Shown: piece after piece, positions 121 to 18,995 of the stretch
How the letters are laid out: every line of letters begins with the position of its first letter
Numbering within the stretch: the first letter of the stretch is position 1
Source of the DNA: a virus
IMG/VR virus record: IMGVR_UViG_3300007344_008336
Span: 1 to 23,228 of that record
Length of the DNA: 23,228 bases
Direction: 5' to 3' (one strand)
Notes under the pieces: model-generated
Database searches by the model: none
What the model was told of the DNA's origin: nothing
What the model saw: the letters and a program-made list of their open reading frames with translations, nothing else
Made by a program: the position numbers and the translations under genes

Positions 121-123
121 TTA
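95..123 (+). repeat. att copy 1 (3' end of tRNA-Ser, left end of element 1)
   Basis: The last bases of the tRNA plus TTA. This 29-bp stretch is identical to 22085-22113, and its last 20 bases (TCCCTATCTCTCCGCCATTA) are identical to 11693-11712. Direct repeats of a tRNA 3' end are the usual footprint of tyrosine-recombinase integration, and a tyrosine integrase lies at 10083-11594. Confidence 0.85.
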
Positions 124-129
124 CATCTA

Positions 130-164
130 AAGCCTCGTAAGTCTCTGATTTATGGGGCTTTTTT
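130..164 (+). terminator. rho-independent terminator for tRNA-Ser, supplied by element 1
   Basis: AAGCCTC (130-136) pairs with GGGGCTT (154-160), with one G-T pair, and six T follow. It lies inside the inserted element, so the element appears to replace the original tRNA terminator. Equivalent hairpins follow the other two att copies. Confidence 0.65.
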
Positions 165-183
165 GTGCGTGATGATTTTCTCG

Positions 184-207
184 TTTGCCCACTCAGTTTG
201 CCCACTC
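184..207 (+). repeat. integrase arm-type repeat, left end of element 1
   Basis: Two copies of TTTGCCCACTC separated by AG. The same 24 bp occurs at 11610-11633 in the same orientation. Here the repeat begins 60 bp after the att core; at the other end it stops 59 bp before the core. Arm-site function is inferred from position and symmetry. Confidence 0.65.
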
Positions 208-215
208 GGCTGAGG

Positions 216-407
216 TCAATTGTCGTAGAAGACAGCAGAGAGCGAAGAGGCCTTTAGAATTTCTACCGATCTTTGGCAGTCGGCGTAAGCGACGTAGCTT
301 TCGCTGCTCCGTGCAATCGCCTTCCCGTTGCTGGCGTAGTAAATCCAGTACCAATGGCCGGAGGCGTCTTTCTTCTGCCAGTAGCATGGATAGGTGACTT
401 GGGCCAT
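216..407 (-). CDS. DUF1508 (YegP-like) small protein
   Basis: A 63-aa protein. The aromatic-rich core, with CYWQKKDASGHWYWIYYASNGKAIARS followed by a second strand-rich half, matches one DUF1508 repeat (K-D-x-x-G-x-W-x-W-x-x-x-x-x-N-G-x-x-I-A-x-S). E. coli YegP carries two such repeats; this has one. The biochemical role of the family is not established. The start at 407 is chosen over an in-frame codon at 500 because AAGGAGAG lies just upstream of this ATG. It is transcribed toward the tRNA and is the first gene of element 1. The structured region 484-706 lies upstream of it. Confidence 0.75.
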   Translation of the reverse strand: MAQVTYPCYWQKKDASGHWYWIYYASNGKAIARSSESYVAYADCQRSVEILKASSLSAVFYDN

Positions 408-483
408 AAAACTCTCCTTGCATGTTGGTTGTTGCCTGAGAGTAGACATGACTAGTTGGATTTCAAGGGTCTCGTTATTAATC

Positions 484-706
484 GTCAGCGCCGCTGACAA
501 GTGATTCCCTCTGACCGAAGGTCAACTAACCCAACAGTGGGAACACTGCCATCCTCCCGGATGTACCTCGATCCATACCCTGTACCCACAGAACCAGCCT
601 TTGGCTCTTGATCTATTGAAATGGCAAGATTGATAGCTAGACGCTATCTAAGGACTCACTGGCGACGGAACGTCGAGAGGATATCAACTTGAAAGCTCAC
701 GCTTTC
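484..706. ncRNA. multi-hairpin structured region, copy A (strand unresolved)
   Basis: Closely spaced short perfect hairpins. Stems (loops) are GTCAGC/GCTGAC (GCC) 484-498, TGACC/GGTCA (GAA) 512-524, CAGTG/CACTG (GGAA) 535-548, CATCC/GGATG (TCCC) 550-563, AGCC/GGCT (TTT) 596-606, GATAGC/GCTATC (TAGAC) 632-648, CGACG/CGTCG (GAA) 663-675 and GAAAGC/GCTTTC (TCAC) 691-706. The unpaired blocks CCACAGAACC (586-595) and CTTGATCT (607-614) recur in the same order at 4373-4382 and 4392-4399. The CATCC/GGATG hairpin corresponds to CCACC/GGTGG at 4307-4320 with the same TCCC loop, so two of five pairs differ by compensatory change. Either strand could be transcribed; purine-rich loops (GGGA, GTGA) lean slightly toward the minus strand. 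It could be a non-coding RNA or a Pseudomonas intergenic repeat. No protein reading is supported. Confidence 0.5.
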
Positions 707-737
707 GGGTAGGGCTATGACAGTGGCTGCGCTGTGT

Positions 738-764
738 GCTTTATATATTGCAACGTTATATAGG
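738..764 (+). promoter_or_regulatory. possible sigma-70 promoter for the 905 gene
   Basis: A perfect -10 TATAAT (759-764) lies 15 bp after a weak -35 TTGCAA (738-743). It sits in an AT-rich stretch that also holds an inverted TATATA pair (732-737 and 747-752). The short spacer lowers confidence. It would give a leader of about 130 nt. Confidence 0.35.
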
Positions 765-904
765 TACTTATAATTACATCCACTTGTATGCACGCATACC
801 CCAATAAAATCAATTGGTTAGCGCTACGCAGGAATGGAACGCGATAGCACAGTGCCAACGCGGGGAGTAACCTGCTAATTCCTTCTCGCAATCAAGGACA
901 GACA

Positions 905-1705
905 ATGAGCATCTACGGTGTCGAAGAGTACCTAGCACGAGCGAAGACTTTCATTGCTGCTGGAGACGAGAGCTCTTTGAGGCATGCCTGCCTTGAGCTG
1001 AGGTTTTGCCTTGAGAGCATCGTTTACCAGAGACTCCGGAAGATAGGCGATAAGCTACCAAGGTCAGTCTACAAGTCTTGGCAGCCTCAAAAGGCGCTCA
1101 AGCTTCTACTCAGCTTTGAGCCGCGTGCTGATCAGGATGTAACGCTCGACATCTGCATCGACACTGTAGACGGTAAGCCTTCCGGCGACTGGAAACGTAT
1201 CGGCGATTACAAAATGTTCTCCGTGAAGTGGCTGAACAAGTCCTACAACAAGCTTGGGAAGTTCCTGCACCTCACCTCGCTGGCCGAAGAGGAGACTCCG
1301 CCTCAAATCAATCCGGTCGACTTACAAGAAATCTACGATGAAATCGAGCGTGTGTCCTCAGCCAGTCTTGTTCTGACGATGAACTCAATAACGGTCGTGA
1401 CCTGCGCGGTGTGCGGGACAGACATGTACGTAAGTCACTCTCAGATTGAGGAGGGATCAGTAGTTGAATGCTACAAAGAGTCCTGCGGAGCAAAGCACAA
1501 CCTAGTGAAGATTGATGAAGATCGGTTCACGGCTAATCGTATCGGCTTCAAAACCGTACCTTGTAAAGCATGCGGAGAAGATTTCTCAATTGAGTCAGTT
1601 GAGCATGGGGCGTTGAAGGACTGCTGGAGTTGTGGGCAATCGCATATTGTTGGATGGGGTTACGGAATATGGCCGATTGCTGATAAGGACGCTGCTGGCG
1701 GTTGA
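905..1705 (+). CDS. zinc-ribbon protein of unknown function
   Basis: A 266-aa protein. Residues 1-75 form a helical region (YLARAKTFIAAGDESSLRHA onward) like the N-terminal part of many uncharacterised bacterial proteins in accessory regions. The C-terminal half holds two four-cysteine clusters: C167-x2-C170 with C189-x4-C194, and C220-x2-C223 with C240-x2-C243. These are consistent with two treble-clef or zinc-ribbon modules that bind nucleic acid or protein. No signal peptide or membrane segment is seen. The start has AAGGA about 8 nt upstream. It stands alone on this strand between structured region A and the recombinase. I do not recognise a named family. Confidence 0.75.
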   Translation: MSIYGVEEYLARAKTFIAAGDESSLRHACLELRFCLESIVYQRLRKIGDKLPRSVYKSWQPQKALKLLLSFEPRADQDVTLDICIDTVDGKPSGDWKRIGDYKMFSVKWLNKSYNKLGKFLHLTSLAEEETPPQINPVDLQEIYDEIERVSSASLVLTMNSITVVTCAVCGTDMYVSHSQIEEGSVVECYKESCGAKHNLVKIDEDRFTANRIGFKTVPCKACGEDFSIESVEHGALKDCWSCGQSHIVGWGYGIWPIADKDAAGG

Positions 1706-1927
1706 ATACCGTCAAACCATGCGCCGCCGCCTGAGAAACATGTGCTACGCAGTGGAGCTTGAGTTTTCAGTCAGGAAAAATAAGCCATGACGCGGTGACT
1801 TGCCGGAGCTGTTAAACAGGCTGCGAGGACAGGGCAGGTAAAGCTGACTAAAGCAAAAATAAGACGCACCTGAGCACGCTCCTGACAGGCGTTGAGCTGA
1901 GTGCTGTCACTTGGTATCAAATGCAAC

Positions 1928-1947
1928 GAAACCCGCTCAAGGCGGGC
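1928..1947 (-). terminator. possible terminator of the serine recombinase gene
   Basis: CCCGC (1932-1936) pairs with GCGGG (1942-1946) around a five-base loop. Read on the minus strand it is followed by TTTCGTT, a weak U-tract. It lies about 20 bp past the recombinase stop. The rest of 1706-1968 holds no gene that I can support. Confidence 0.35.
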
Positions 1948-1968
1948 TCTGTGGGGCGTTACATCACG

Positions 1969-2688
1969 CTATTTCATTGGAAGTGGAACACCTAGACGGG
2001 ACATCAGACGCTTAACTGTCATGGGCTGGAAAGCACTACCCCGCTCGGTGGTGATGCCTTTGGCATTCAAGCACTTCGCGATAGCTGCGAAGGTGGGTTG
2101 CCCATCGTACAAGCATGCCTTTAGCTCAGCCTCCAGAGCCTTTGCACGAGCATTGGCATTCAGCGCCTTTGCAGCCACAGCAGCACCATTGCCCACAGCC
2201 CATGCTTTGCTACGGCCAGCGTCACGCCGGGCGATTTTCTGGCGAGCCTCCTCACCCTTGGATGTATCAGTGAGTGCGAGTTGTTTTAACTCGTCCAGAC
2301 CATCCTTTGTACGCTTTCGAATCTTTACCAGCTCTTCCTCGGCCAGGAGCGACTTAATGTTGCGTACCAAGCCACTGCTGTGAACATCCTCAGCCTCGAT
2401 GAACGTGTATTTCTTTTGCAGGGTGACGAAGTGCGCGTGATCACGGGTAAGCCTATCCACTCGATGCACAACGACCGGGCAAGCCAATCCTTTTGCCATC
2501 GCAAGAGCGAGACGACACTGAGGGCGCTCCTGGGGATCTACGCTACCGGATACGCCTTCGTCCGTGAACTGAGCAACGATCTCCCATCCATTTGCCTCAG
2601 CGGCGATCCTGATAGCGGCGAACTGACCACCCACCGAGAGGCATTGGTCATCGGTCGACATCCTCGCGTAAGCCACTACCTGTTTCAT
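1969..2688 (-). CDS. serine recombinase / resolvase family
   Basis: A 239-aa protein. The N-terminal resolvase domain has YARMSTDDQ with the catalytic serine at position 11 and arginine at 9, then HRVDRLTRD and the E-helix (EELVKIRKRTKDGLDEL). The C-terminal part is alanine-rich and ends in a helix-turn-helix-like segment (TFAAIAKCLNAKGITTERG...MTVKRLMSRLG). It is larger than Tn3-type resolvases and much smaller than large phage serine integrases. The start at 2688 is preferred over an upstream in-frame codon at 2721 because GGGGGAGGCG sits just upstream. It may form an operon with the 72-aa gene at 2756-2974, 67 bp upstream. It could be cargo, an inversion or resolution enzyme, or an additional mobility gene; the tRNA insertion is better explained by the tyrosine integrase at 10083-11594. 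Confidence 0.85.
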   Translation of the reverse strand: MKQVVAYARMSTDDQCLSVGGQFAAIRIAAEANGWEIVAQFTDEGVSGSVDPQERPQCRLALAMAKGLACPVVVHRVDRLTRDHAHFVTLQKKYTFIEAEDVHSSGLVRNIKSLLAEEELVKIRKRTKDGLDELKQLALTDTSKGEEARQKIARRDAGRSKAWAVGNGAAVAAKALNANARAKALEAELKACLYDGQPTFAAIAKCLNAKGITTERGSAFQPMTVKRLMSRLGVPLPMK

Positions 2689-2755
2689 TGACTCGCCTCC
2701 CCCAAATCCATCGAGAGGCAATCATAACATATTGCTGACGGTCGACAACGATATG

Positions 2756-2974
2756 TTAATGGTCTTCCCGACGAAGGGATTTGATTGCTGCGGTTATGTT
2801 TTCGGCGTTCTGGTCCAACGTTTGAAGTGCGCCACTAATGTTGATGTGAGCAGCCTCTGCCCCCTCTTCTCGAAGCCACAGGGATATTTCTTCGATACAT
2901 GCCCGGATGCCATCTTGATTGATGGTGATCAGCTCTATGGCATCAGCAGCAGTTTCAGCATCTTGATCGTTCAT
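2756..2974 (-). CDS. small acidic helical protein, unknown
   Basis: A 72-aa protein, strongly acidic and predicted all-helical, with spaced hydrophobics (IELITINQDGIRACIEEISLWL and AHINISGALQTLDQNAENI). AAGGATG lies 9 nt before the ATG. It precedes the serine recombinase gene on the same strand. A reading frame on the opposite strand over the same region is cysteine-rich and lacks a good ribosome site, so this strand is preferred. It resembles small phage accessory proteins that form coiled dimers, but I recognise no family. Confidence 0.5.
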   Translation of the reverse strand: MNDQDAETAADAIELITINQDGIRACIEEISLWLREEGAEAAHINISGALQTLDQNAENITAAIKSLRREDH

Positions 2975-3337
2975 GCCCGGTCATCCTTGATGGTGTGGTG
3001 TAGAAACACTAGACCATCGGTGAGCTGGCCGGGGCTGGGTGTTGCCGCGCTGTAGAAAACGGTGATCTGAGCGCCGGAATGGGTATTTTTGAGCGAAAAC
3101 CTCAATTTGAACGCAACCAGCGGAAAACGCTTAATCGATCTCGCCTACAAGCCACGGATACACTGGGCTCCAGCCCTATTGCCTTAGAACTCCGTTCTTG
3201 GGGGAGCCACTCACGCGGGAGGTTTCCAGGGGGTTTTGGGTAGGTATTGGGATGTTTCAACGGAGGTTTCTGTAACCATAGTCAGGCACTAAGCCATCAG
3301 TTACTATCTGCGCCATTGGCTACCGCAAGGGAATTGT
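2975..3337. other. 363-bp divergent intergenic region
   Basis: It separates the minus-strand 72-aa gene from the plus-strand AbiJ-like gene, so it should hold two outward promoters; none is close to consensus. A few short hairpins are present: GTGT-AGAA-ACAC near 2998, GGGCT-CC-AGCCC near 3168 and AGAAC-TCC-GTTCT near 3187. These recall the structured regions at 484 and 4211, but the conserved blocks CCACAGAACC and CTTGATCT are absent. No gene is seen. Confidence 0.4.
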
Positions 3338-4201
3338 ATGTCTGACGATATGAACCACTTGAGTTTTTCACAGCGCATGGGCCAAGTACCAGCGGTAAAA
3401 GTCGCACAAGTTGATAGCATTGATACAGCTCTAAAAAACTCTCTCTGGAACGTGCTGACACTTAAGTGTTTTTCTGGATATTATGCTAAAGAAAGAGTTT
3501 ATCCGGATAGGCTTCGCACTTCAAACTTCAAGGATTTTGCCGAAAAACTCTATAGCGATTTTTACAAAGCCCCTGTGGATACAATACCCAGCGCATGGTC
3601 TAGCCTTAAAACAACCATGAAAGAAAGCTACTTCAAGATGAGCTGGCATCGAACCTACAGCTTTATAGAGTTCATTGTAAAAATGAATTACAACGGGACC
3701 AAACAAACACTCATCGACGAATTCAATATCGTATTGACGCGTGAAAACTCGGCTTACCGCTTTGCCGCAGAAAAATTAATCCAAATTACATCTAAAAATG
3801 AAATAGAAGAGATTGAGCGAGCAATAGCCAACTCGGACCAATACGCTGGGGTTAAAACTCACATCCAAACATCGCTTGGTTTCCTAACAGACAAGCTGAA
3901 CCCGGATTACCGAAACTCGATTAAAGAATCAATCAGTGCGGTCGAGTCTCTGGCAAAGAAACTCGTTGGCGATGATAAAGCTACGCTAGGTCAGGCGCTC
4001 AAAGTACTGGAAAAGCATCACAACCTTCACCCAAGTCTCAAGACTGCCTTCTCCGCACTGTACGGGTATACCAACGATGCGAGCGGCATTCGTCACTCCT
4101 TGATGGATAACGAATCAGCACTTACCCAAGCAGATGCTAGGTTCATGCTCATCTGCTGTTCAGCGTTCATTAACTTTGCCATCGATAGCACGAAGAGTTA
4201 A
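3338..4201 (+). CDS. AbiJ-NTD4 / HEPN-like abortive infection protein
   Basis: A 287-aa cytoplasmic protein. Residues 8-120 (FSQRMGQVP...KVAQVDSIDTALKNSLWNVL) match the N-terminal domain called AbiJ_NTD4, known from the lactococcal phage-resistance protein AbiJ and relatives. The C-terminal part (about 190-287) is helical, with the family motif GIRHSLMD (RH at 252-253) and a final CSAFINFAID segment, as in HEPN-like toxins. In this family the C-terminal domain is thought to act as an RNase or toxin triggered by phage infection; that role is inferred here. AAGGGAA precedes the ATG. It is a single gene without a partner antitoxin on its strand, and structured region B starts about 10 bp after its stop. 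The A+T-richer composition than the tail genes of element 2 suggests separate acquisition. Confidence 0.8.
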   Translation: MSDDMNHLSFSQRMGQVPAVKVAQVDSIDTALKNSLWNVLTLKCFSGYYAKERVYPDRLRTSNFKDFAEKLYSDFYKAPVDTIPSAWSSLKTTMKESYFKMSWHRTYSFIEFIVKMNYNGTKQTLIDEFNIVLTRENSAYRFAAEKLIQITSKNEIEEIERAIANSDQYAGVKTHIQTSLGFLTDKLNPDYRNSIKESISAVESLAKKLVGDDKATLGQALKVLEKHHNLHPSLKTAFSALYGYTNDASGIRHSLMDNESALTQADARFMLICCSAFINFAIDSTKS

Positions 4202-4210
4202 TCCGCCAAT

Positions 4211-4484
4211 GGAGTGAGTCAACATCATACGTCACCGTATGGCTCCACCTAGTGTAGAGGTGGTAACAGCGTGAGCTGTAGAGTTGACTCACCTCTAGAG
4301 ACTATCCCACCTCCCGGTGGACGTATCGCCACAGGACTCCCAGTCCAACCGAAGCCATACATAAAGAAATCACCACAGAACCGCTTCTGCCCTTGATCTT
4401 GGATTTTTGTGCATAAAGGAATGCGTTCGCATTCAGCAGTTCATCGTCAGCGTTCGCTGACAGCTATTGCCATCACCTCCGGTG
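4211..4484. ncRNA. multi-hairpin structured region, copy B (strand unresolved)
   Basis: This region resembles 484-706. After the cloverleaf-like fold (4214-4292) come hairpins CCACC/GGTGG with loop TCCC (4307-4320), GGACT/AGTCC (4334-4346), CAGAA/TTCTG (4376-4389), GAATGC/GCATTC with loop GTTC (4419-4434), GTCAGC/GCTGAC with loop GTTC (4446-4461) and CACC/GGTG (4474-4484). Blocks CCACAGAACC (4373-4382) and CTTGATCT (4392-4399) match copy A in order and spacing. The region lies between the stop of the AbiJ-like gene and the convergent 184-aa gene, so it could be a 3' UTR of either or a separate RNA. It may be a known Pseudomonas intergenic repeat. Confidence 0.5.
4214..4292. ncRNA. 79-nt cloverleaf-like fold at the start of copy B
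   Basis: A perfect 10-bp outer stem, GTGAGTCAAC (4214-4223) with GTTGACTCAC (4283-4292), encloses three hairpins. They are ATACG/CGTAT with loop TCAC (4227-4240), CCACCT/AGGTGG with a 7-nt loop (4245-4263), and ACAGC/GCTGT with loop GTGA (4266-4279). All four stems are perfect and the joints are short. It lacks the T-loop, the D-loop and an acceptor end, so it is not a tRNA. A four-way junction is the simplest reading. Confidence 0.5.
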
Positions 4485-4601
4485 TATCAAGGTCAAGATC
4501 AAAAGCATTTTGGGTTGTGGTGATGCTGGATGTATTTACTGGTGGGCTGATCCAGAATCGGGACGATACGACTAACGTCACTCCAAGAGTGATTACACTT
4601 T

Positions 4602-4687
4602 AGTGCTTCGCACTGGCTTCTTTTCTTTCCGACGTTAATTGCTTTGATCTGTTCAGACCTACGGTCTTTCTTCTTTCCGACGTTAAT
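4602..4687. repeat. duplicated hairpin plus 17-bp direct repeat module
   Basis: TTCTTTCCGACGTTAAT occurs at 4623-4639 and at 4671-4687. Each copy is preceded by a short perfect hairpin: AGTGC/GCACT (4602-4614) before the first and AGACC/GGTCT (4655-4667) before the second. The hairpin stems differ in sequence while the following tract is identical. The second copy runs into the stop codon of the minus-strand 184-aa gene. It may be a tail of structured region B. Confidence 0.5.
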
Positions 4688-5237
4688 GAATTCCTTGAAG
4701 ACGGAACTCTCGGAGTGCTTCGCCGTATGCAAGATAATCCCCAGTTTCTCGTAACTCCTCGATGTGGCGCGGAACCTCTCTTAGCGGCGTATACGGGACG
4801 AGTGCGACGTGAGAATAGGCCAGCTTCGCCTCAATGCGTGCGTATTCCTCGTAACGCTCAAGCAGTTCTGGTCGGCGAATAAGATATGTGAACAGCCCAT
4901 GTGCAGCGTGGCGTGCAGCGGCTATCACTCTCTGGGCCTTCCGCCTTGCCATTCCAGCATCGAGAAGGGGCTGAACCTCGAAGGTACGCAAGTGGAGCGC
5001 CCCTACAACCTCATCCATGCATACATTGCAGACGTTCCCCGATTGTCCGGCACTATTGAGGCAACTACCGAAAACGATGTCGTCAAACCACTGAGGGCGA
5101 GTACCCGGGAATGACAGTTGCGCAGTTATGTGGGCAATCGGATTGGATGTACTTCCAGGCTTTCGCCCACGCTTCGTCGGCGCCGGTTGGATTGATTCTG
5201 TGTAGTCAATAAGTTTGAAAACAAATGGTATTGCCAT
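4683..5237 (-). CDS. unrecognised 184-aa protein
   Basis: A soluble 184-aa protein. The N-terminus (MAIPFVFKLIDYTESI) is followed by a basic linker (TKRGRKPGS). Two closely spaced cysteines (CNVC, about residue 72) occur mid-protein, and the second half is long, charged and helical (ARRKAQRVIAAARHAAHGLF and RPELLERYEEYARIEAKLAY). The start at 5237 is chosen because GGAG lies 8 nt upstream; an earlier in-frame ATG at 5261 has no ribosome site. A good promoter at 5382-5411 would give its own transcript with a leader of about 140 nt. The gene converges with structured region B. It looks like an accessory phage or island gene, but I recognise no family. Confidence 0.65.
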   Translation of the reverse strand: MAIPFVFKLIDYTESIQPAPTKRGRKPGSTSNPIAHITAQLSFPGTRPQWFDDIVFGSCLNSAGQSGNVCNVCMDEVVGALHLRTFEVQPLLDAGMARRKAQRVIAAARHAAHGLFTYLIRRPELLERYEEYARIEAKLAYSHVALVPYTPLREVPRHIEELRETGDYLAYGEALREFRLQGIH

Positions 5238-5381
5238 AGTTACGCTCCAGTAGTTTTTCATTTCATAGGCAGATGCCTCTGGTAATAGGGAGGGTCAAAT
5301 TCCAGACAGCACAAAACCGACGCCTGACGTTGCACTAGGGCAAGTCGAGAACGTTCGATGTTGGGTTTTAGGAAGTTGGCG

Positions 5382-5411
5382 ACAATACGCCTAATGACCC
5401 TATTTTGTCAA
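5382..5411 (-). promoter_or_regulatory. sigma-70 promoter for the 184-aa gene
   Basis: On the minus strand, a perfect -35 TTGACA (5406-5411), an 18-bp spacer and a -10 TATTGT (5382-5387). The next minus-strand start codon with a ribosome site is at 5237. Confidence 0.55.
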
Positions 5412-5443
5412 GATACTTTACACTTACAAGTTATTGTATGAGA

Positions 5444-5518
5444 CTAATTCACAAGCCCCTGTAGAGCGATTGCAGCGGCGTGGTAATCTTGCTGTGTTGC
5501 AATATCTTCGTATCTCAT
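5444..5518 (-). CDS. 24-aa small ORF, translationally coupled to the 109-aa gene
   Basis: The reading is MRYEDIATQQDYHAAAIALQ followed by GLVN and a TAG stop. Its ATG overlaps the stop of the preceding gene as ATGA, and GGAGGGA lies 6-7 nt upstream, one of the best ribosome sites in the window. The same ATGA or TAATG coupling joins the upstream genes of this operon, which supports translation. The peptide is acidic to neutral and helical, with no membrane segment. Function unknown; it would be the last gene of the tape-measure operon. Confidence 0.5.
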   Translation of the reverse strand: MRYEDIATQQDYHAAAIALQGLVN

Positions 5519-5844
5519 TGACTCCCTCCAAATATTTCACGTGTATGGCCGTGAAGCTGCCGTGCAACTTCCAACTCAGCAAACTTCCTTGAGCGGACTA
5601 AGTCAGCCTGCTGCCAGTCGTACCAGTTATTCCGCAGGCTATTTGCCTGATGCTCAATGTAGTCTCGTAGCTGAGTGGATAGTTTGCTTTCTCGCTGAAT
5701 GGCGTAGTCTGTTAGTTGCTCTATTGTCTGGGTGTACATCTTTTCATTACGGATAATCCCGAATGATGTAACACCAACATTCAACAGAACAACAACAATG
5801 GTTGTTATAAGTAATCGTTTCATCAGTTTATAATGATCACGCAC
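5515..5844 (-). CDS. small membrane-anchored protein (GTG start), spanin-like layout
   Basis: A 109-aa protein. One hydrophobic segment near the N-terminus (LLITTIVVVLLNVGVTSFGI, about residues 10-29) is followed by a charged, glutamine-rich helical region. That layout fits an inner-membrane protein with a periplasmic coiled tail, as in Rz-type i-spanins. No nested lipoprotein gene is seen, so a spanin role is only a possibility. The GTG start at 5844 is preferred because AAGGAG lies 5 nt upstream; an ATG at 5823 has none. It follows the tape-measure-like gene by 56 nt on the same strand and overlaps the 24-aa ORF. Confidence 0.65.
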   Translation of the reverse strand: MRDHYKLMKRLLITTIVVVLLNVGVTSFGIIRNEKMYTQTIEQLTDYAIQRESKLSTQLRDYIEHQANSLRNNWYDWQQADLVRSRKFAELEVARQLHGHTREIFGGSQ

Positions 5845-5900
5845 AGAGACTCCTTGATCTTTCTGATTATGTAAGGGGGAAAAGCCTGTTGTTAGCAGGC

Positions 5901-8105
5901 TTATTGAACTTCTTTAGGGGTGTAGGAACCAAAGATCTTATCAGTCACTACTTTTGCGATCTCATTAGCGTCAGCATCCGTTTTTACATTAACCGTGACA
6001 TTATTTGTTACGGTAGTCGGTGCCGCACTGTTAGAGTTAGTCGTGTTATTGACGACTGTACCCCTAACAGGCTGCTCATCGGAAACCCACGCGCCACGAC
6101 TACCGGGGGTGGCGCGTGAAGCCTGAGTCGTCGCGGTAGCGACAAGTTTGGCTATAGCGCTATCTGGATCACCGGCAGCGAGCAAATCTGCAAGGCGTTT
6201 GCCATAGTTTGGAATCCCGCCTGTGTTCAAGCCGCCCAGAGATAGTTCAGGAGGTGTAATACTCAACGAGTCAGTAGCAACCACCCTCCCGGTAAATTCA
6301 CCTTTGGAGTAGTCAGGCCTGTTAGTTAACCAGCCCCACAACTGACTAATAGGGTCAACCGACTTCTTACCACTTGCGTCAGACTTACCACCATTGAAGG
6401 CGTATGGATCAACACCACTACCCTCAATCATATACGCAGCCCCAACTTCTTCGGCCTTCTGTTGGGGAGTCTTTTCGGTGTTATCGGCATTCCGACCTGT
6501 CATCATATGCAACATTGAAGTTTGCAGCTTGACTAATACCACGTCGAAGTCCCGGAAAGCAGCTTGCAGACCTGAGGTCGATTCGATCAACTGTCGCTCG
6601 GCTGTAAGACGATCACCCAGCGCGGCAATCAACTCAGGATCGCTGTTTGTTTTCTCGGCCTGGAGGTACTTGTCGTTTTCCACACGGACAGCTTGTGCAT
6701 CCAACGAGTGCTTATGCCTCTCAAGTAGTTCCGGTGATTGGGCAACGATATCTCGCATCCCCTGCTGAACCATTGCACCGTTAACTTTGCCATCGTGTTG
6801 AGCCTCCAATACGAAACCAGCCAACTTGTTAATATCACCTTTGTAACCAAGAGCTTTACCAATGGCCTGATACAAGATTGTAGTTAGACGCGTACCAAGT
6901 GCGTCTGTTAGTGGTCGAAGGTCTTGCCCCATGAATCGGTCTTTTGAGTACCCTTGGTTAAGCTGGAGAGCGGCAGAATACTGCTGCGTCTTGTCCAAGT
7001 TACCAATACGGAATACAGCAGCTTGATCTTTCTGGAGCTGGATGGCTTCTTCCAGTGTTTTTCCCTGAGCGCGGAAACCTTGAACCATGTTTGAATAAGC
7101 TACAGCCGATTCACGATCAATCTTCATTCCGAACTCTTGAGAATTTTGAATGTACGCCTCTTTGATCCGGATTCGCTCTTTATCGTTATTACCAGCAGCC
7201 ATCAGAGTGTTATCAAATTGTTGATTATCGGCTGCTGTCTCTTGGCGCTGCTTAATACGCTCACCCAAGTACCCAGCAGCCTCTGTAAGCGCGTATAACG
7301 CGGCACCAGCCGCTCCAATCCCGATAGTCAGTCCACTCAAGCCCAGACCCTGAGGCTCAGCCTGACGGGCCTGCCAAGCGGCGTGGCGTTCGGTTGCCAT
7401 GGCATAGCGACCGGATGCCTGTTCGGTGCGTGTTGCGGCTCTGACTTCACGGGCAGCACTGGCAAGTTTTGATGCTTGATGGCGCTCGGCAAGTCGTACA
7501 CCACGCTCACGAGCGGCAAGTAATCCGGCCTCCGCACGCTGCAACTTAGACTGATGTAGCGCAGCCTGTTGCTGTAGTTGAACTGTTCTTTCTTGACTGC
7601 GAAGCAGTACATCTTGCAGGCGAGCTTCTCGTAGTTTCGATTGCTCTGACGACGCTTGCAGCTTCGCCCTGCCAAGATCAACTTTCAATGCCTCTTGCTC
7701 GGCCTTATGCTGTTTAGCCGATAGCACAGCAGCAGTGACTTGTTGTTTCAAAGATGCACCTTGCAAGAAGGCGTCTTCACGCTTACCGTTGGATACTAAC
7801 TTCTGCTCGGCAAGCTGGGTGGCGAACTGAGTGCGCTTAAGGCGAGCCAGCTTTTGTTCTGTCGCTACCTGCTTAGCGAGACTCTTCTCAACTGCCGCAT
7901 TCGCCGCCGTGCTGGCATCCCGTCTTGCTGTGATGTTGAACTTCTTATTCAGCGCTTTTTGCAGCGCTTCGGCTTGCTTGCCCACTTTCGCCATAGAGGT
8001 TTCGGCTGTCTTCAACATGCCCAGGAAGCGCTGTAGACCACTTGCGTCAACCTGGAAAAACAAACTACCCGTTAGGCGTGCAATCTCCTCGGTAATTCCA
8101 CTCAT
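5901..8105 (-). CDS. phage tail tape-measure-like protein
   Basis: A 734-aa protein. The N-terminus (ITEEIARLTGSLFFQVDASG) matches the opening of tail-length tape-measure proteins. Residues 30-250 are a long Ala/Gln/Arg/Lys coiled-coil. A glycine-rich hydrophobic stretch (LSGLTIGIGAAGAALYAL, about 255-275) follows, then a mixed helical region. The C-terminus (VNNTTNSNSAAPTTVTNNVT onward) resembles other tape-measure C-termini. Such proteins span the tail tube, set its length and help DNA enter the cell. The start at 8105 overlaps the previous stop as ATGA; an earlier TTG at 8120 is less likely. No major tail, sheath, baseplate or capsid gene accompanies it, which is unusual. It could be a satellite-encoded substitute for a helper-phage protein or a relic, but it shows no frameshift or stop. 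Confidence 0.75.
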   Translation of the reverse strand: MSGITEEIARLTGSLFFQVDASGLQRFLGMLKTAETSMAKVGKQAEALQKALNKKFNITARRDASTAANAAVEKSLAKQVATEQKLARLKRTQFATQLAEQKLVSNGKREDAFLQGASLKQQVTAAVLSAKQHKAEQEALKVDLGRAKLQASSEQSKLREARLQDVLLRSQERTVQLQQQAALHQSKLQRAEAGLLAARERGVRLAERHQASKLASAAREVRAATRTEQASGRYAMATERHAAWQARQAEPQGLGLSGLTIGIGAAGAALYALTEAAGYLGERIKQRQETAADNQQFDNTLMAAGNNDKERIRIKEAYIQNSQEFGMKIDRESAVAYSNMVQGFRAQGKTLEEAIQLQKDQAAVFRIGNLDKTQQYSAALQLNQGYSKDRFMGQDLRPLTDALGTRLTTILYQAIGKALGYKGDINKLAGFVLEAQHDGKVNGAMVQQGMRDIVAQSPELLERHKHSLDAQAVRVENDKYLQAEKTNSDPELIAALGDRLTAERQLIESTSGLQAAFRDFDVVLVKLQTSMLHMMTGRNADNTEKTPQQKAEEVGAAYMIEGSGVDPYAFNGGKSDASGKKSVDPISQLWGWLTNRPDYSKGEFTGRVVATDSLSITPPELSLGGLNTGGIPNYGKRLADLLAAGDPDSAIAKLVATATTQASRATPGSRGAWVSDEQPVRGTVVNNTTNSNSAAPTTVTNNVTVNVKTDADANEIAKVVTDKIFGSYTPKEVQ

Positions 8106-8482
8106 TGTAAACCCCCACAACCGAATCCGTGAGGGCTCTTACGCTGTTCAAAGTACTCATTAAATGTACGATGGAATGCAGTGTTGTTTCGGCCAAAGCT
8201 TACATACTCAGCACTTGCAAGGGTGCTACCCTTGTTATTAATCAAGTACGCCTTGAAAGCATCTTGGACGGCCCGACCACCAGACAATGCAAAATAGACT
8301 GTACCGTCAGGAAGTCTTGCCCACTTGTAACTAAAGGCGATACCTGGAGAGATATAAGCTCTCAGGTGTTGAGACATTGCACAAACAAAGCCACGAACAT
8401 TAGTTGAGGGGGCCATTGTGGTGATACTGTGGTATTGCTGTTCATTTTTCAGAACTTGTTTCGGCGTAACTAATCTTTCCAT
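8102..8482 (-). CDS. unknown protein of the tape-measure operon (126 aa)
   Basis: A 126-aa soluble protein containing two repeated-looking Y-aromatic strands (YISPGIAFSYKWARLPDGTV and YFALSGGRAVQDAFKAYLIN), a SAEYVSFGRNNTAF segment and a glycine/cysteine-rich end. The start at 8482 forms TAATG with the previous stop and has AAAGGA 6 nt upstream. In phage tail operons the gene before the tape measure is often a tail assembly chaperone or minor tail protein; I cannot assign either from sequence. Its stop overlaps the tape-measure start, so expression is likely coupled. Confidence 0.65.
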   Translation of the reverse strand: MERLVTPKQVLKNEQQYHSITTMAPSTNVRGFVCAMSQHLRAYISPGIAFSYKWARLPDGTVYFALSGGRAVQDAFKAYLINNKGSTLASAEYVSFGRNNTAFHRTFNEYFEQRKSPHGFGCGGLQ

Positions 8483-8808
8483 TAATGGTCCTTTGGCGGA
8501 ACGAAAACCCAACTTCCTGCCGGAATGCCGTTCATACTAACAGGTAGCGTAAACGACCTTGCAATCAGTTCAGGATTTGCAGAGTTGAACTCTCGAAGAG
8601 CTTTAAAAATTACTGACTCGTTATAATCTGCACTACTCATAACTAAGATCATTCCTGTAGATGCGTGTATGGCTTCTGGGGCGCTTTTAGCGGTTGGTTC
8701 TTGCACTGATGAGGATTCACTCTTAGTTACTGCCAAAGGCTCTTGTAGAAGCTCCTGTAATTTACCGGGGTTGTATTTAGCCAATAGCAACTTGGTCAAA
8801 CCATCCAT
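8482..8808 (-). CDS. unknown protein of the tape-measure operon (108 aa)
   Basis: A 108-aa protein. The start MDGLTKLLLAKYNPGKLQEL is followed by a Ser/Glu/Pro-rich linker (about 28-48) and a folded-looking C-terminal part with GMILVMSSADYNESVIFKAL and SWVFVPPKDH. It overlaps both neighbours by one base in TAATG form, so it is co-translated with them. The low-complexity linker suggests two parts joined flexibly. No family recognised. Confidence 0.6.
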   Translation of the reverse strand: MDGLTKLLLAKYNPGKLQELLQEPLAVTKSESSSVQEPTAKSAPEAIHASTGMILVMSSADYNESVIFKALREFNSANPELIARSFTLPVSMNGIPAGSWVFVPPKDH

Positions 8809-9362
8809 TAGCGCTTACCTCGGGCTGGAGTAGTCTTTACCACCTCTGTTGCCGGTGGCGCGGTGAAAGTCTCCCGGATCTGTTTTTCAACAAGAGCACG
8901 CTTTTCAGCAGCAGCTTTAGCCTGTTCACGCTCTTCGCGAGCAGCGTCAACACGAAGTTGTGCGTCAACTTGCTGTTGGATGAAGCTCTCGTTGTGAGAT
9001 TCAATCTCTGCCTTGTAATCGTCCTCAACCTTTTGCAAGATTGCTGCAAGCACTGGTTTGACTTGGCTCTCTGGACGATTGAAGTAGATCTCAAAAGTGT
9101 TTGCATTAATAGCTACAGTGCCAATCGTTGTAAGCGTGTAGCCTTTGGCGGTGTATTCGATATATACCGGAATGAGGTCTTCTGCATACTTCACAAGAAC
9201 GGCTTCAATGCCACCCTCGACATACCCACCTACAGGGCGCCCTGTTACAGGATCATTGCCGGCGAAGTGATTGATCCCACTCTTGCGGCCTCGGAATTGT
9301 TCCTCTGCTGCTGCCTTACGGGCTTGAAGTTCGGCTGTATCTACAGTTTTGAATAAGCTCAT
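8808..9362 (-). CDS. unknown protein with C-terminal coiled-coil (184 aa)
   Basis: A 184-aa protein. The N-terminal half has GINHFAGNDPVTGRPVGGYV and a beta-rich stretch (AVLVKYAEDLIPVYIEYTAK). Residues about 115-165 form a Glu/Gln/Ala/Arg coiled-coil, and the tail is basic (KTTPARGKR). It starts in ATGA overlap with the zinc-finger gene and ends in TAATG overlap with the next gene. The layout fits a structural or scaffolding-type phage protein, but I recognise no family. Confidence 0.6.
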   Translation of the reverse strand: MSLFKTVDTAELQARKAAAEEQFRGRKSGINHFAGNDPVTGRPVGGYVEGGIEAVLVKYAEDLIPVYIEYTAKGYTLTTIGTVAINANTFEIYFNRPESQVKPVLAAILQKVEDDYKAEIESHNESFIQQQVDAQLRVDAAREEREQAKAAAEKRALVEKQIRETFTAPPATEVVKTTPARGKR

Positions 9363-9643
9363 TGTGTCTCTCTCATTAGAATAATTGGTGCATCGGAATG
9401 GATTGCTTCTAAAACTTCTGGATTTAGAAAACTTCGCACGAGAGCTTCAAGCTCTTCGTAAGTTTTAGTGTCGCCAACATCGGTAAAAGTTACTTCCAAC
9501 CTGCCGATGGTGATTGTTTTGTCTGCTCGCTTCTTACGACGATGGTCAGATGACTTGCAAGCGGCGCTGCAATACACGCCCCTGCTGTTTTTTGAATCGA
9601 ATGGTTCACTGCATACAATGCAGTTTCGTTTTACTACGGCCAT
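9359..9643 (-). CDS. small zinc-finger protein, first gene of the operon
   Basis: A 94-aa protein. An N-terminal four-cysteine finger, C8-x2-C11 and C25-x3-C29 in a YCSAACKSSDHRRKKR context, is followed by basic residues and an acidic C-terminal half. Similar short fingers are common in phage regulatory proteins and could bind nucleic acid. The start at 9643 is preferred over 9649 because AAAGGAG is then 8 nt upstream instead of 2. It opens a run of seven same-strand genes that end at 5444, five of them overlapping. The likely promoter is at 9996-10024, with a leader and terminator in between. Confidence 0.7.
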   Translation of the reverse strand: MAVVKRNCIVCSEPFDSKNSRGVYCSAACKSSDHRRKKRADKTITIGRLEVTFTDVGDTKTYEELEALVRSFLNPEVLEAIHSDAPIILMRETQ

Positions 9644-9726
9644 AGGCATGGCTCCTTTTGAACTAGGTGATTTACTGATTAGTTTGGGTTTGATTGCTAC
9701 TGAAACGCACTGAAGAATAGCGCGGA

Positions 9727-9763
9727 CAAAAAGAAGGCGGGGTCAGCTTGAAGGCGCCCCGCC
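9727..9763 (-). terminator. intrinsic terminator between leader and tape-measure operon
   Basis: GGCGGGG and CCCCGCC form a 7-bp GC-only stem (9736-9742 with 9757-9763). On the minus strand it is followed by TTCTTTTTG. It lies downstream of the promoter at 9996-10024 and about 85 bp before the first operon gene, so full expression would need read-through or antitermination. Confidence 0.6.
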
Positions 9764-9989
9764 GTAGTTGTGTAACCGATGCTTGTTTTCGGTGTTACGA
9801 ATTTGTGCCCATTTCGATAGTCAAGGGCGTGACCGACTAAGATCCTCACCTTAGCCTGACAGTTTCTCGGCCGACGCAACTGCTGAGCGCCAGGAACCGT
9901 TTTCACGAGGCCGGGTTTGAAACTCTAATGAGTCTCAAGGAGAATTCAGGAAGGTATAGCGGAGAGAGGAGTAATAAAAACCTCTACCT
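9727..9989 (-). ncRNA. structured leader RNA or short non-coding transcript
   Basis: The segment between a consensus promoter and an intrinsic terminator, about 260 nt. It contains further inverted repeats: CTAAG/CTTAG (9837-9854) and GTAACCG with CGGTGTTAC (9772-9798). A GTG-started 69-codon frame spans 9697-9906, but its 3' part is made of the terminator stem and it has no clear ribosome site, so a non-coding reading is preferred. It may be an attenuator leader or a stand-alone small RNA. Confidence 0.4.
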
Positions 9990-9995
9990 TTGCTT

Positions 9996-10024
9996 ATTGT
10001 CGCACGACTTTCTTGAGTTGTCAA
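9996..10024 (-). promoter_or_regulatory. strong sigma-70 promoter upstream of the tape-measure operon
   Basis: On the minus strand, a perfect -35 TTGACA (10019-10024), an exactly 17-bp spacer and a -10 GACAAT (9996-10001). It lies 60 bp after the integrase stop and points into the leader at 9989-9727. Confidence 0.7.
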
Positions 10025-10082
10025 GCATATCCGTATAATAAAAGCAACTATTTTCTATTCGTGGTGACGAACGGTGTATTTC

Positions 10083-11594
10083 TTACTCGAATGTGTATGA
10101 CAACACCTTCAAGGCGGCGAGCTTCTGGGCGGGGCTTGCACCCTCATCGTAGATGTCGAACGTCACCAGCCCGGTCTCATGTCCGACGATGTTCGCCACT
10201 GTGGGGCCAGGAACGCCACCACGAAGCAGGAGGGTGACGACCATCGACCGGACGCTGTGGAATACGTGCTGCTTGCCGTAGCCCTGAGCTGTCTTCAAGC
10301 GGCCAAACGCCTTGCTGAGCGAGTCACTACGAATGCCGTACTTGTTGCCGCCTGAACTCGGTAGTAAGTAGCCATCTGTGCTTTCAGCGATGAGACGTTC
10401 GACAGTCGCCAGCAGTGCGGGAGGGACGGGTATTTCACGGATACCAGCGACGGTCTTGGAGTCTTCAATTTTGAGGCTCAGGATGCCCTCCACCTTTGCC
10501 ACAGACTCTTTTCTAAGCTGGGCCAGTTCCTCAACACGGCAACCGGTGTGGGCTCCTAGGTCGATCAAGTCGCACAGCGTTTGATTGCCGTTTGCCTTAG
10601 CGACTGTATACAGCTCTTGAATCTGTTCAGGAGTGAATGCTTTACGGGCTGTATCTGCCTTGGCCTTGCCACGTAACTTGGGAAGCTCTTGCCCGGTGAA
10701 CGGGTTATCTTGCCCCTGGTATGCATCCTGCCAGTGAGGATCGTGTTTGACCGCCCATCGCCAGAATGTTGAGCCAGATAATAAGTACTGAGCCTTCGTT
10801 TTGCTCGATAGCCCCAGCGTTTCCAGCCAAGCAGCGATGGTCTTACGGGTAAGTGGCTGGCCTTCATCACGGAGGTAAGCGGACAACTTTTCTAGCTTGC
10901 TCTCTTGCTGATCGACGGTCTTGGTAGCGATACCATCTTTCACTCGGTGCGCTCGAAACAATTCAAGGCGGCGAGAAGTGATTGGGGAAACTGGCCTGTA
11001 AACTGAGGGGAAGGTGGTAAGGACCACTGCCTCTTCGACTTCGCCAGGGCTAAGACCATACTTACGTTCAGCGAGCATTACGCTGACAGTACGGGAAACT
11101 TGTGCGGCCTCCTGAACAACATCCACGACAGAGGGTAGGGGAGTTTCTAAGCGTTGACGCATTGCCTCAACCAGCCCAGTTGCACCAGCGTCTTCTAATT
11201 CTTGAATCTCTAAAAGGAACGACGCTTTGTCGCGTTCTAGCTGTGCCATGCGGGCTAGAATCTCAGCCTCGGTGCCTCCCTTAGCTTTCGGGGGGCGTTT
11301 GATCGCATTCAACAGCCCAGCGTCTACTTGTTTGCTAAGTTCTGTGCCTTTATCGGCAAGGTCTTGGCGCCAGAGGTCACGACTGGCCGTCTTGCCGTCT
11401 TTGGCGGCTTGAATCTCTTGCTTCCAGAGGGCGAGGATCGGAAGGCGTCTGTCCATGGCTTCCGCCTTGTTGCTTGTGCCTGTTGTCTTGACCAATTTGG
11501 TACGTCCACCGAAAGCATGACGCACTGCTGGCGGGAGGATCATACGGACGTACCAAACGGATTCGCCGGGCTTCTGGAACAGGTGGGTAGCCAT
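10083..11594 (-). CDS. tyrosine recombinase (phage/island integrase)
   Basis: A 503-aa integrase. The N-terminus (HLFQKPGESVWYVRMILPPA) is of the DUF6538 type. A central helical region and a SAM-like core-binding domain (about 205-290) follow, then the catalytic domain. Visible catalytic residues are R353 (HTGCRVEEL), K380, H446 and R449 (HSVRS), H472 (GHE) and Y482 (FDIYDEG). The full set is present, so the enzyme should be active in strand exchange between tRNA-derived att sites. GAGGAGA lies 6 nt before the ATG. It sits at the right end of element 1, about 100 bp from att copy 2, and reads leftward away from it. The paired TTTGCCC repeats overlap its upstream region and may also control its expression. 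Confidence 0.95.
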   Translation of the reverse strand: MATHLFQKPGESVWYVRMILPPAVRHAFGGRTKLVKTTGTSNKAEAMDRRLPILALWKQEIQAAKDGKTASRDLWRQDLADKGTELSKQVDAGLLNAIKRPPKAKGGTEAEILARMAQLERDKASFLLEIQELEDAGATGLVEAMRQRLETPLPSVVDVVQEAAQVSRTVSVMLAERKYGLSPGEVEEAVVLTTFPSVYRPVSPITSRRLELFRAHRVKDGIATKTVDQQESKLEKLSAYLRDEGQPLTRKTIAAWLETLGLSSKTKAQYLLSGSTFWRWAVKHDPHWQDAYQGQDNPFTGQELPKLRGKAKADTARKAFTPEQIQELYTVAKANGNQTLCDLIDLGAHTGCRVEELAQLRKESVAKVEGILSLKIEDSKTVAGIREIPVPPALLATVERLIAESTDGYLLPSSGGNKYGIRSDSLSKAFGRLKTAQGYGKQHVFHSVRSMVVTLLLRGGVPGPTVANIVGHETGLVTFDIYDEGASPAQKLAALKVLSYTFE

Positions 11595-11609
11595 CTAAAT
11601 CTCCTCTGA

Positions 11610-11633
11610 TTTGCCCACTCAGTTTGCCCACTC
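11610..11633 (+). repeat. integrase arm-type repeat, right end of element 1
   Basis: Two TTTGCCCACTC units separated by AG, identical to 184-207. It lies between the integrase start and att copy 2, with a 59-bp gap to the att core. Confidence 0.65.
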
Positions 11634-11692
11634 TAGGGTCTTAAAGCCAGAAGATACAGTGTTTAAAGAGCTGTAGGAGTGAAATAATAGAG

Positions 11693-11712
11693 TCCCTATC
11701 TCTCCGCCATTA
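11693..11712 (+). repeat. att copy 2 (junction of elements 1 and 2)
   Basis: TCCCTATCTCTCCGCCATTA, identical to the tRNA-Ser 3' end at 104-123. Only 20 bp are shared here, against 29 bp for copy 3. The sequence to the right continues to match that after copy 3 for about 90 bp with scattered changes. Confidence 0.8.
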
Positions 11713-12841: not shown

Positions 12842-13225
12842 AAGCTTCAGCCCTATTACTTCAACTTGGATATCGCGGCCTTCGATGAGCTGAGCCGCTC
12901 GACCGAATTCCGCTGGGCCTCCCAGGAACGCCTGTCACGCCGCCCAGCGCAGCAGGCCGTGGGCATGGGAGAGGAAAAGCTCACCCTCAAAGGCGCGATT
13001 TACCCGGGCTTCAAGGGTGGCCTGAAGCAGCTCGACACGTTGCGCAGCATCGGTGCCCGACTTCAGCCACTGACCCTGACCACGGGCTATGGTGAGGTGA
13101 TTGGGACCTAGTGCCTGAAGACCATCAACGAGGAACAAGGCGCGCTGCTGCACGGCGGGATTCCCCGTAAACAAGGGTTCACTCTGGAGTTTGCGCGCTA
13201 TGGCGACGACATGCAGAACGTCTGA
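12842..13225 (+). pseudogene. P2 gpU-like tail protein, 5' truncated with an in-frame TAG
   Basis: The frame reads KLQPYYFNLDIAAFDELSRS, then SRRPAQQAVGMGEEKLTLKG and GYGEVIGT, meets TAG at 13109-13111, and continues in the same frame with CLKTINEEQG to GDDMQNV and TGA. Tail protein U homologues have a tryptophan at the stop position (GTWCLKTI), so TGG to TAG is the likely lesion. The frame is open upstream to 12728, but no family-like start with a ribosome site is visible and the preceding 130 bp are not recognisable, so the 5' end appears lost at the junction with the Mrr-side DNA. gpU caps the tail of contractile P2-like phages and tailocins; this copy is probably non-functional unless the amber is suppressed. 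Confidence 0.75.
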
Positions 13226-13406
13226 CGGTGACATGCTCGATGTTATTTGCCACAACGTTTATGGCCATCTGAACGGCAGCACCGAGGCGGTGCTCGATGC
13301 CAACCAGGGGCTGGCGGATGAGCCCCAGCCTTTCCGTTCCGGCGTGGTGATCGTACTACCAGATCTGCCCAGCCCGACCGAGGAAGGGATTAGCTTGTGG
13401 GATTGA
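13200..13406 (+). CDS. X: P2 gpX-like tail protein (LysM-like)
   Basis: A 68-aa protein: CRTSDGDMLDVICHNVYGHL, then VLDANQGLAD, LPDLPSPTEE and a terminal LWD. The whole pattern matches tail protein X, whose fold is LysM-like and which joins the tail end or baseplate hub. The start ATG at 13200 overlaps the end of the U gene, with GGAG about 11 nt upstream, as in P2-like operons; a TTG nine bases earlier is less likely. Length is normal (about 65-75 aa) and no lesion is seen. It lies between U and D as in P2. Confidence 0.85.
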   Translation: MATTCRTSDGDMLDVICHNVYGHLNGSTEAVLDANQGLADEPQPFRSGVVIVLPDLPSPTEEGISLWD

Positions 13407-13468
13407 CCTCGGGCGACACCGTCGTCGGCAGCCCATTGCGTGACGCATAACGACACTGTGTTTTTTGA

Positions 13469-13492
13469 CCCGCCCTGTGCGGGCTTTTTTTT
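13469..13492 (+). terminator. strong intrinsic terminator between X and D
   Basis: CCCGC/GCGGG around loop CCTGT, then C and eight T (13485-13492). It lies 60 bp after X and just before the D start, inside what should be one late operon. Confidence 0.75.
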
Positions 13493-13503
13493 GGACAAAA
13501 TTC

Positions 13504-14550: not shown

Positions 14551-14557
14551 CGCATCC

Positions 14558-15079
14558 CATCGCCGCCAAGCGGGCGTTTTTGTATCTGCCCTCAATGCGG
14601 CGATGGTTCGCCGGCAGATCAACATGCCGAAACGTCAGGCCGTATTCCTGGCGCAGGTCGGTCACGAATCTGGGCAACTGCAATACGTCCGTGAGTTGGG
14701 CGGCGATCAGTACCTGAGCAAATACGACACCGGCACCCTGGCCGCGAATCTGGGCAATACGCCGGAAGCGGACGGGGATGGCCAGCGCTATCGTGGTCGT
14801 GGCCTGATCCAAATTACGGGCCGCAACAATTACCTGCGCTGCAGCCTGGCGCTGTTCGGCGACGAGCGATTGCTGCGCACCCCTGAGCTGCTGGAGCTGC
14901 CGCAATGGGCCGCCGAGTCGGCCGCGTGGTTCTGGTGGGTGCGCGAGCTGAATGCCCTGGCAGACCGGGACGACTTCGACGCGATCACCCGAAAGATCAA
15001 CGGCGGCCTCAATGGTCTTGTGGATCGGCTGGAGTTGTGGGGCCGGGCGAGGGCGGTGCTATGCGTCTCGTCGACCTGA
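14558..15079 (+). pseudogene. GH19-type phage endolysin, N-terminally truncated
   Basis: The frame reads HRRQAGVFVSALNAAMVRRQ, then FLAQVGHESGQLQYVREL with the GH19 catalytic glutamate in GHES, YRGRGLIQITGRNNY, WAAESAAWFWW and ITRKINGGLNG. The enzyme would cleave cell-wall glycan for lysis. The usual opening, about 15-20 residues with a start codon, is missing: homology runs directly into the D stop, and a change of frame lies between. An ATG at 14603 could start a shorter protein, but no ribosome site precedes it. The C-terminus overlaps the Rz start by 19 nt, as usual. Probably inactive through a small deletion after D. Confidence 0.7.
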
Positions 15080-15111
15080 TTCCAGCACCGTATCGGCTGC
15101 TGGCCATCGGT

Positions 15112-15132
15112 TGGCTGCTGGCTGCTGGCTGC
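15112..15132 (+). repeat. three tandem 7-bp repeats (TGGCTGC) in Rz
   Basis: Perfect units at 15112-15118, 15119-15125 and 15126-15132. The unit length is not a multiple of three, so gain or loss of one unit changes the Rz reading frame. Confidence 0.85.
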
Positions 15133-18977: not shown

Positions 18978-18995
18978 ACTCCACTCCCTCGGATC

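Follow-up and report, generated by a model that had tools for sequence, protein, structure and literature searches.

Two chains of short hairpins in a viral sequence of 23,228 bp (IMG/VR record IMGVR_UViG_3300007344_008336; the window, meaning this whole stretch) are shown by profile comparisons to be homologous; they belong to a single family of hairpin arrays, non-coding and residing in small integrative elements of Pseudomonas. The family itself is well supported and appears to be previously uncatalogued, lacking any Rfam match. Alignment of its members shows that hairpins change in sequence but retain their pairing and position, and judged from these comparisons the folding of the arrays has clearly been preserved by evolution. 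Support is good for this structural part, whereas the mechanism can only be guessed: our leading reading, held tentatively, is that the arrays may be cis-acting DNA sites of the excised element, recognised by structure and probably folded as a single strand for replication or strand conversion.

Two hairpin arrays in one integrative element

The window probably comprises two integrative elements in tandem, since the 3′ end of a tRNA-Ser(CGA) located at 31-117, or an att-like repeat corresponding to it, occurs in three copies (95-123, 11684-11712 and 22085-22113). The first element, at about 123-11690, contains both hairpin arrays together with an integrase, a small serine recombinase, cargo genes and a gene at 5901-8120, whose relative in locus L079 matches the tape-measure family TMP_3 (6e-12 for the L079 homologue). 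The genes of this element that concern the arrays are the following:

905-1705, + strand: zinc-ribbon cargo gene after array 1, with a 58% identical homologue in L050
1969-2721, − strand: small serine recombinase, convergent with array 1 in the window, L034 and L052
3338-4201, + strand: AbiJ_NTD4 cargo gene directly upstream of array 2, of the PADLOC candidate defence family PDC-S32
4683-5261, − strand: partner gene convergent with array 2; L075 and L051 have related proteins in the corresponding position
10083-11594, − strand: tyrosine integrase (DUF6538) of the element that hosts the arrays, between the att-like repeats 95-123 and 11684-11712

Perfect hairpins, counted here as stems of 5 or more pairs with loops of 3-5 nt, number 95 in the window (0.82 per 200 nt on average), and at only two sites do at least five of them fall within 180 nt, namely 490-698 (n = 7) and 4233-4505 (n = 8). 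These are the two hairpin chains of a preliminary description, which gave their sequences and coordinates correctly; they are the only hairpin clusters in the 23 kb. The extent that it gave was too short, as array 2 reaches about 4616 and includes a conserved tail. The units of the arrays are stems of 5-6 bp, mostly with loops of 3-4 nt and often with AGC-loop-GCT ends, commonly 14-60 nt apart. Both regions had been taken as non-coding, and indeed no convincing reading frame runs over either. Their anatomy is as follows, with the strand given where one is assigned:

484-706, + strand: array 1, non-coding, seven perfect hairpins plus one 4-bp hairpin at 596-606
484-498, 512-524, 535-548, 550-563, 632-648, 663-675 and 691-706, + strand: perfect hairpins of array 1
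720-735, + strand: terminator-like hairpin after array 1, ACAGTGGCTGCGCTGT and then T-rich sequence (the number of such sites is not above chance)
4211-4295: 5′ unit of array 2, closing stem GGAGTGAGTCAAC / GTTGACTCACCTC (4211-4223 / 4283-4295)
4225-4240, 4245-4263 and 4266-4279: hairpins inside the closing stem of the 5′ unit
4307-4346: linker hairpins of array 2, CCACC-TCCC-GGTGG (4307-4320) and GGACT-CCC-AGTCC (4334-4346)
4369-4524: 3′ domain of array 2, enclosed by long inverted arms, outer arm ATCACCACA / TGTGGTGAT at 4369-4377 / 4516-4524
from 4383, up to 4506: closing arms of hexamer repeats (TTGATC/TTGCTC type) in the 3′ domain
4419-4434, 4446-4461 and 4474-4484: three inner hairpins of the 3′ domain
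4546-4573: conserved tail GCTGATCCAGAATCGGGACGATACGACT, the most conserved block of array 2
4600-4616, + strand: last conserved hairpin, AGTGC-TTC-GCACT, terminator-like on the + strand in the window

The blocks shared by the two arrays lie where they had been placed, with CCACAGAACC at 586-595 and 4373-4382, and CTTGATCT at 607-614 and 4392-4399. The place of the former is homologous, but the exact 10-mer is not kept in other members, where the consensus is about ACACAAATCC, and its identity between the two arrays is therefore partly luck. The hairpins CATCC-TCCC-GGATG (550-563) and CCACC-TCCC-GGTGG (4307-4320), which had been compared as aligned, do differ by two pairs changed on both sides; they are not equally placed, however, lying 22 and 52 nt from CCACAGAACC, respectively, with the extra hairpin GGACT-CCC-AGTCC intervening in array 2.

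A family of arrays in Pseudomonas elements

The proposal that both arrays are related copies within one mobile element is borne out by a DNA profile of 13 family members from which array 1 of the window was excluded; this profile matches 488-614 (E 2.4e-9) and array 1 of L034 (E 1.4e-12). A stricter profile, restricted to array-2 type members of other elements, still finds array 1 of L034 at E 1.8e-6, array 1 of the window being marginal with it (E 0.075). A structure model (R2) matches the window at 4383-4506 with 127 bits, this copy being one of its own training sequences, and gives 44 bits for L053, the first half of which matches array 1.

Relatives of array 1 are present in L034 and L052 (73% identity each). 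The phage record MT836130.1 contains a full-length match to array 2 with 80% identity and also array 1 (73%), whilst scanning genomes for the AbiJ-like protein pointed to P. reactans (L035), where array 2 is at 80%. The search of Pseudomonas genomes with a structure model, which had been suggested at the outset, uncovered further members of the family. By our own reading of the sequences, these occur in about 16 of the 399 Pseudomonas genomes sampled with DNA comparisons, a sequence profile (R1) and R2; R2 matches of 40-70 nt (for example L083, L098 and L099) and hexamer-rich ones (for example L101 and L112), which are devoid of the array's inner hairpins, were not counted. One member lies beyond the genus sample, in genome G783 of the family sample (L084), and the class sample of 229 genomes yielded only G001 plus the false positive L083, without inner hairpins. 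Full-length R2 matches amount to one or two per genome. Two closely similar arrays are found on two contigs of G185 (L078 10013-10131 and L079 9962-10078).

Among viral contigs, the pattern CCACAGAACC..CTTGATCT gave 31 matches, none of them related, the conserved-tail pattern retrieved unrelated sequence only, and protein searches with two cargo genes gave no relatives. The comparison with Rfam detected only a tRNA over threshold in the window, and nothing credible at a relaxed threshold. We found no description of the arrays or of their elements in the literature searched, outside of which lay preprints and most subscription journals.

Pairing is conserved while sequence changes

Covariation in homologues was an expectation of the preliminary description, and the three inner hairpins (HP1-3) agree with it well beyond the shuffle control: across 14 members, 189 of 200 cells are Watson-Crick, and 500 shuffles reach at most 168, in an alignment made with the model and hence leaning towards it. 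In the same members, 9 of the 16 pairs of these hairpins have changed on both sides, with 12 extra pair types. The hexamer closing arms do not covary beyond shuffles (175 of 229 cells, against a maximum of 182), and the outer arm shows three double-changed pairs (C-G to A-T, A-T to T-G and C-G to T-A). Perfect stems of at least 6 bp number 43 in 17 arrays, those of the window and its relatives, whereas dinucleotide shuffles yield about 4. Arrays can vary in how many hairpins they have, since the 3′ domain of L084 holds more than three between the same arms. Covarying stems are thus present in the arrays, although covariation alone does not tell RNA from DNA.

The array stays while its neighbours change

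In nearly all the array-2 loci examined, array 2 lies 3′ of a DNA-binding or replication-like gene and is convergent with it. One type of partner is shared by the window, L075, L051, L050, L080 and L084, and also by L076 through the C-terminal HTH of its protein, which is fused to a DEAD helicase. Other types occur in L048, in L078/L079, and in L081 with its homologue in L034; the L081 protein is a RepL (PF05732, over the Pfam cut-off) and the L034 homologue has no Pfam hit. Only this one partner reaches the RepL cut-off, most of the others being plain HTH proteins, and searches of partner proteins against PDB profiles gave at best weak HTH matches. Among the proteins searched, none was recognised as an HUH rolling-circle Rep.

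Array 2 stays similar while cargo, convergent gene and integrase are swapped. The arrays of the window and L034 are 80% alike, with convergent genes of unrelated types. The upstream cargo is AbiJ/PDC-S32 in the window, L034, L049 and L054, and consists of other genes elsewhere, PDC-S15 and an Argonaute-associated nuclease being found in L076 and L048. The integrases vary between tyrosine types, some of them near tRNA-Ser or tRNA-Val, and large serine recombinases. For its part, array 1 lies beside a serine recombinase (window, L034 and L052) or just after an integrase (L053 and L077).

Three specific partnerships were considered on these grounds. Array 1 was rejected as an RNA partner of the gene at 905-1705, which is missing beside array 1 in L034 and L052, and array 2 was rejected as an antitoxin RNA of the AbiJ-like gene, given that other genes precede the array in L048, L051, L075 and L076. 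A role of the array as the specific binding site of the convergent protein is weakened, because unrelated types of protein take the place of this one beside an array that persists. Given such constancy beside changing neighbours, the array is most likely cis-acting and works with a factor that comes from the host or is widely shared.

Folded DNA or folded RNA

The preliminary description pointed to a non-coding RNA or a structured DNA element. For an RNA made from one strand, a preference for that strand would be expected to show, with an excess of stems bearing G-T pairs on it; the tests of strand did not lend the RNA weight. In the 17 arrays, stems with one G-T number 7 (4.6 and 4.2 expected from two shuffle sets), those with one A-C number 3 (4.2 and 4.8), and those with another mismatch 15 (16.8 and 19), so that G-T stems are hardly enriched. 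In the closing arms, A-C and G-T changes are about equal (21 and 19). Loops of GNRA/GNA type are 16 on the forward strand and 22 on the reverse, and the mean folding z is −4.19 forward and −3.85 reverse. Inverted loops are found at homologous places, as in GTGACC GAA GGTCAC of L077 versus TGACC TTC GGTCA of L053, or TTCC of L075 versus GGAA of L076. When rRNA was put through the hairpin count for comparison, perfect stems were not in excess, which makes the arrays unlike rRNA but is no proof of DNA; this control also shows the strand method to be crude.

An enrichment in strictly Watson-Crick palindromes, together with the lack of strand preference, makes DNA most likely the folded molecule. 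These strand facts would favour selection either on DNA palindromes or on both strands, and RNA could still be involved. In the tail hairpin CTGAT-CCAGA-ATCGG, one T-G pair is retained on the + strand, and the matching stem of L084 has two, which slightly favours a + strand RNA. Terminator-like + strand hairpins follow both arrays in the window, in numbers not above chance.

Comparison with known structured elements

The arrays had also been suspected of being an already catalogued Pseudomonas repeat, a suspicion that found no support: the motif GTCAGC-N4-GCTGAC has 0-5 copies in each of ten genomes, whereas REPs and REPINs occur in more than 100 copies per genome (PMC2817692). In REPs, one end of the palindrome is tagged with GTAG or CGTC (PMC3733652), and among 110 hairpins of 21 arrays these tags appear 0 times and once, respectively. 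REPIN spacers show compensatory changes, with hairpins predicted in single-stranded DNA or mRNA (PMC3116915). The arrays thus resemble REP, REPIN and BIME sequences in being extragenic palindromes, mostly 3′ of genes, with compensatory changes (PMC3116915, PMC3733652, PMC2817692), and differ from them in their low copy number, in the absence of a GTAG/CGTC tag and of a common stem sequence, in their confinement to mobile elements, and in their stems of 5-6 bp with many sequences. No RAYT transposase was found among the selected window and neighbour proteins searched against Pfam. REPINs are the best precedent for the arrays, though by copy number and tag the arrays are not REPs or REPINs themselves. 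The TTGATC/TTGCTC hexamers of the closing arms recur beside chromosomal REP-type repeats (L098, L099 and L112), and long CTCTTG/ATCTTG hexamer runs with an inverted arm, made of the same hexamers as the closing arms, occur in Pseudomonas chromosomes (L107 1350-1640 and L101 1500-1600).

Other structured elements offer partial likenesses. The attC sites of integrons are hairpins of variable sequence and conserved structure beside cargo genes, a description that would also suit the arrays; unlike attC sites, the arrays have no R-box cores (GTTRRRY in 2 of 21 arrays, RYYYAAC and GTTRRRY together in none of the 21), no integron integrase was seen, and where attC is a single long and imperfect hairpin, an array strings several short ones together. 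Judged by core sites, the arrays are not attC. Rolling-circle plasmids and ssDNA phages likewise have non-coding multi-hairpin regions near replication genes, namely single-strand origins (sso) and primosome assembly sites, whose structure is recognised by host factors; for the arrays, no known sso signature and no HUH Rep was seen. GOLLD, ROOL and HEARO are large ornate RNAs located outside genes in phage or mobile DNA, similar to the arrays in their conserved complex folds; the arrays differ in being chains of small hairpins without an Rfam match or strand bias. The intergenic region of filamentous phages is also a non-coding hairpin chain, used for replication and packaging, whereas in the array elements no inovirus genes were recognised and a tape-measure-like gene is often present.

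Possible roles of the arrays

In the reading that we place first, the array would act in cis through its shape and a few conserved linkers, and its partner would be a factor of the host or one that the elements share. After excision, the single-stranded DNA of the element would fold during replication, strand conversion or transfer, and the array would play a role comparable to that of a single-strand origin or assembly site. The link with replication is guessed from the fact that the array adjoins a RepL-like, helicase or HTH gene. In a broader form, it is possible, if doubtful, that the arrays constitute a new class of cis-acting folded-DNA elements, made of interchangeable mini-hairpin chains and selected for their shape on both strands, not for their sequence, across defence-carrying Pseudomonas elements regardless of integrase, replication gene and cargo. 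A strict Watson-Crick pairing could also be explained by transcription of both strands or by mutational repair of quasi-palindromes. We rank the alternatives as a one-strand RNA, a two-way 3′-end element, a palindrome cluster maintained by repair and, lastly, a junction for cargo exchange.

A structured non-coding RNA made from one strand, either acting in trans (for instance on a phage or host protein) or forming the structured 3′ part of the mRNA of the cargo or convergent gene, seems to us rather unlikely. Both arrays fold strongly as RNA (z −2.6 and −4.3), and the covarying inner hairpins, the + strand T-G pairs of the tail hairpin and the terminator-like + strand hairpins just after both arrays would all suit such a molecule. 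However, neither the G-T stems nor the loops and folding energies single out a strand, the terminator-like sites do not exceed chance and their T-run is missing in L034 and L048, Rfam holds no match, and the nearest upstream gene of L050 points away from the array.

An unlikely alternative to one strand is both of them: a terminator, insulator or mRNA stabiliser at the 3′ end of two convergent transcripts, like some REP/BIME clusters. Here both RNAs must fold, and G-U pairs would therefore be avoided, which fits the strict Watson-Crick pairs without strand bias; array 2 does lie between convergent genes in most loci, and REPs are found mostly downstream of genes (PMC3733652). A terminator would nonetheless hardly need 350-400 nt with conserved linkers and a conserved tail of 28 nt, most of the hairpins have no T-run after them, array 1 precedes genes in the window, L053 and L077, and one of the neighbours diverges in L050 and L080.

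It is improbable that the arrays are a non-functional cluster of palindromes, a REP-like relic in which template-switch repair of quasi-palindromes maintains perfect pairing. Such repair agrees with the loop inversions and with strictly Watson-Crick stems, and the TTGATC/TTGCTC arms are those shared with chromosomal REP-type repeats; yet architecture, linkers and tail are kept across divergent elements and beyond the genus sample (L084), and the hairpins are not dispersed in genomes. Very improbable, finally, is a junction for cargo exchange, with folded single-strand hairpins recombined by the element's recombinase or homology serving for swaps of cargo modules. In its favour, homology between elements breaks at unit borders (stopping exactly at 4295 in G306, L043/L049, and starting at 4382-4392 in L044/L050, L045/L051, L075 and L076), the upstream cargo differs (AbiJ-like, secreted protein and others) and serine or Xer-like recombinases recur nearby. 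Against it, the attC core pair is absent from all 21 arrays, the type of recombinase varies while the array does not, and the breakpoints may merely mark the end of the conserved unit.

Whatever their mechanism, the arrays are a conserved and uncatalogued non-coding part of defence-carrying mobile elements of Pseudomonas, and the structure model provides a marker for finding such elements. They also offer a clean case for separating selection on DNA hairpins from selection on RNA. If the folded-DNA site that we favour is real, it could throw light on the replication, conversion or movement of these elements, which is otherwise invisible in them.

Other features of the window and related loci

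Several further stretches deserve mention. The TMP_3-related gene at 5901-8120 recurs in L034, L052, L053, L077, L079 and L081, and its element, with no other recognised tail genes, is possibly an undescribed type of satellite. Among intergenic sequences, 5257-5430, upstream of the gene at 4683-5261, is 75-79% conserved in L034, L048 and L050 and is a candidate origin or promoter region; a stretch of 94 nt at 1870-1963, on the 3′ side of the serine recombinase gene, is 82-83% conserved in L034 and L052 and is a candidate recombination site; and 9726-9836, from a zinc-finger gene to the integrase, is 84% conserved in L034. The cargo of L048 at 12933-15542 comprises the Argonaute-associated nuclease (PADLOC Aga_Nuclease, 3e-76) and a SEC-C type protein. 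In the second tandem element, phage tail- and lysis-like genes at 13465-15600 and a possible defence cargo at 16784-21519, with methyltransferase-like and other genes, were recognised by eye only.
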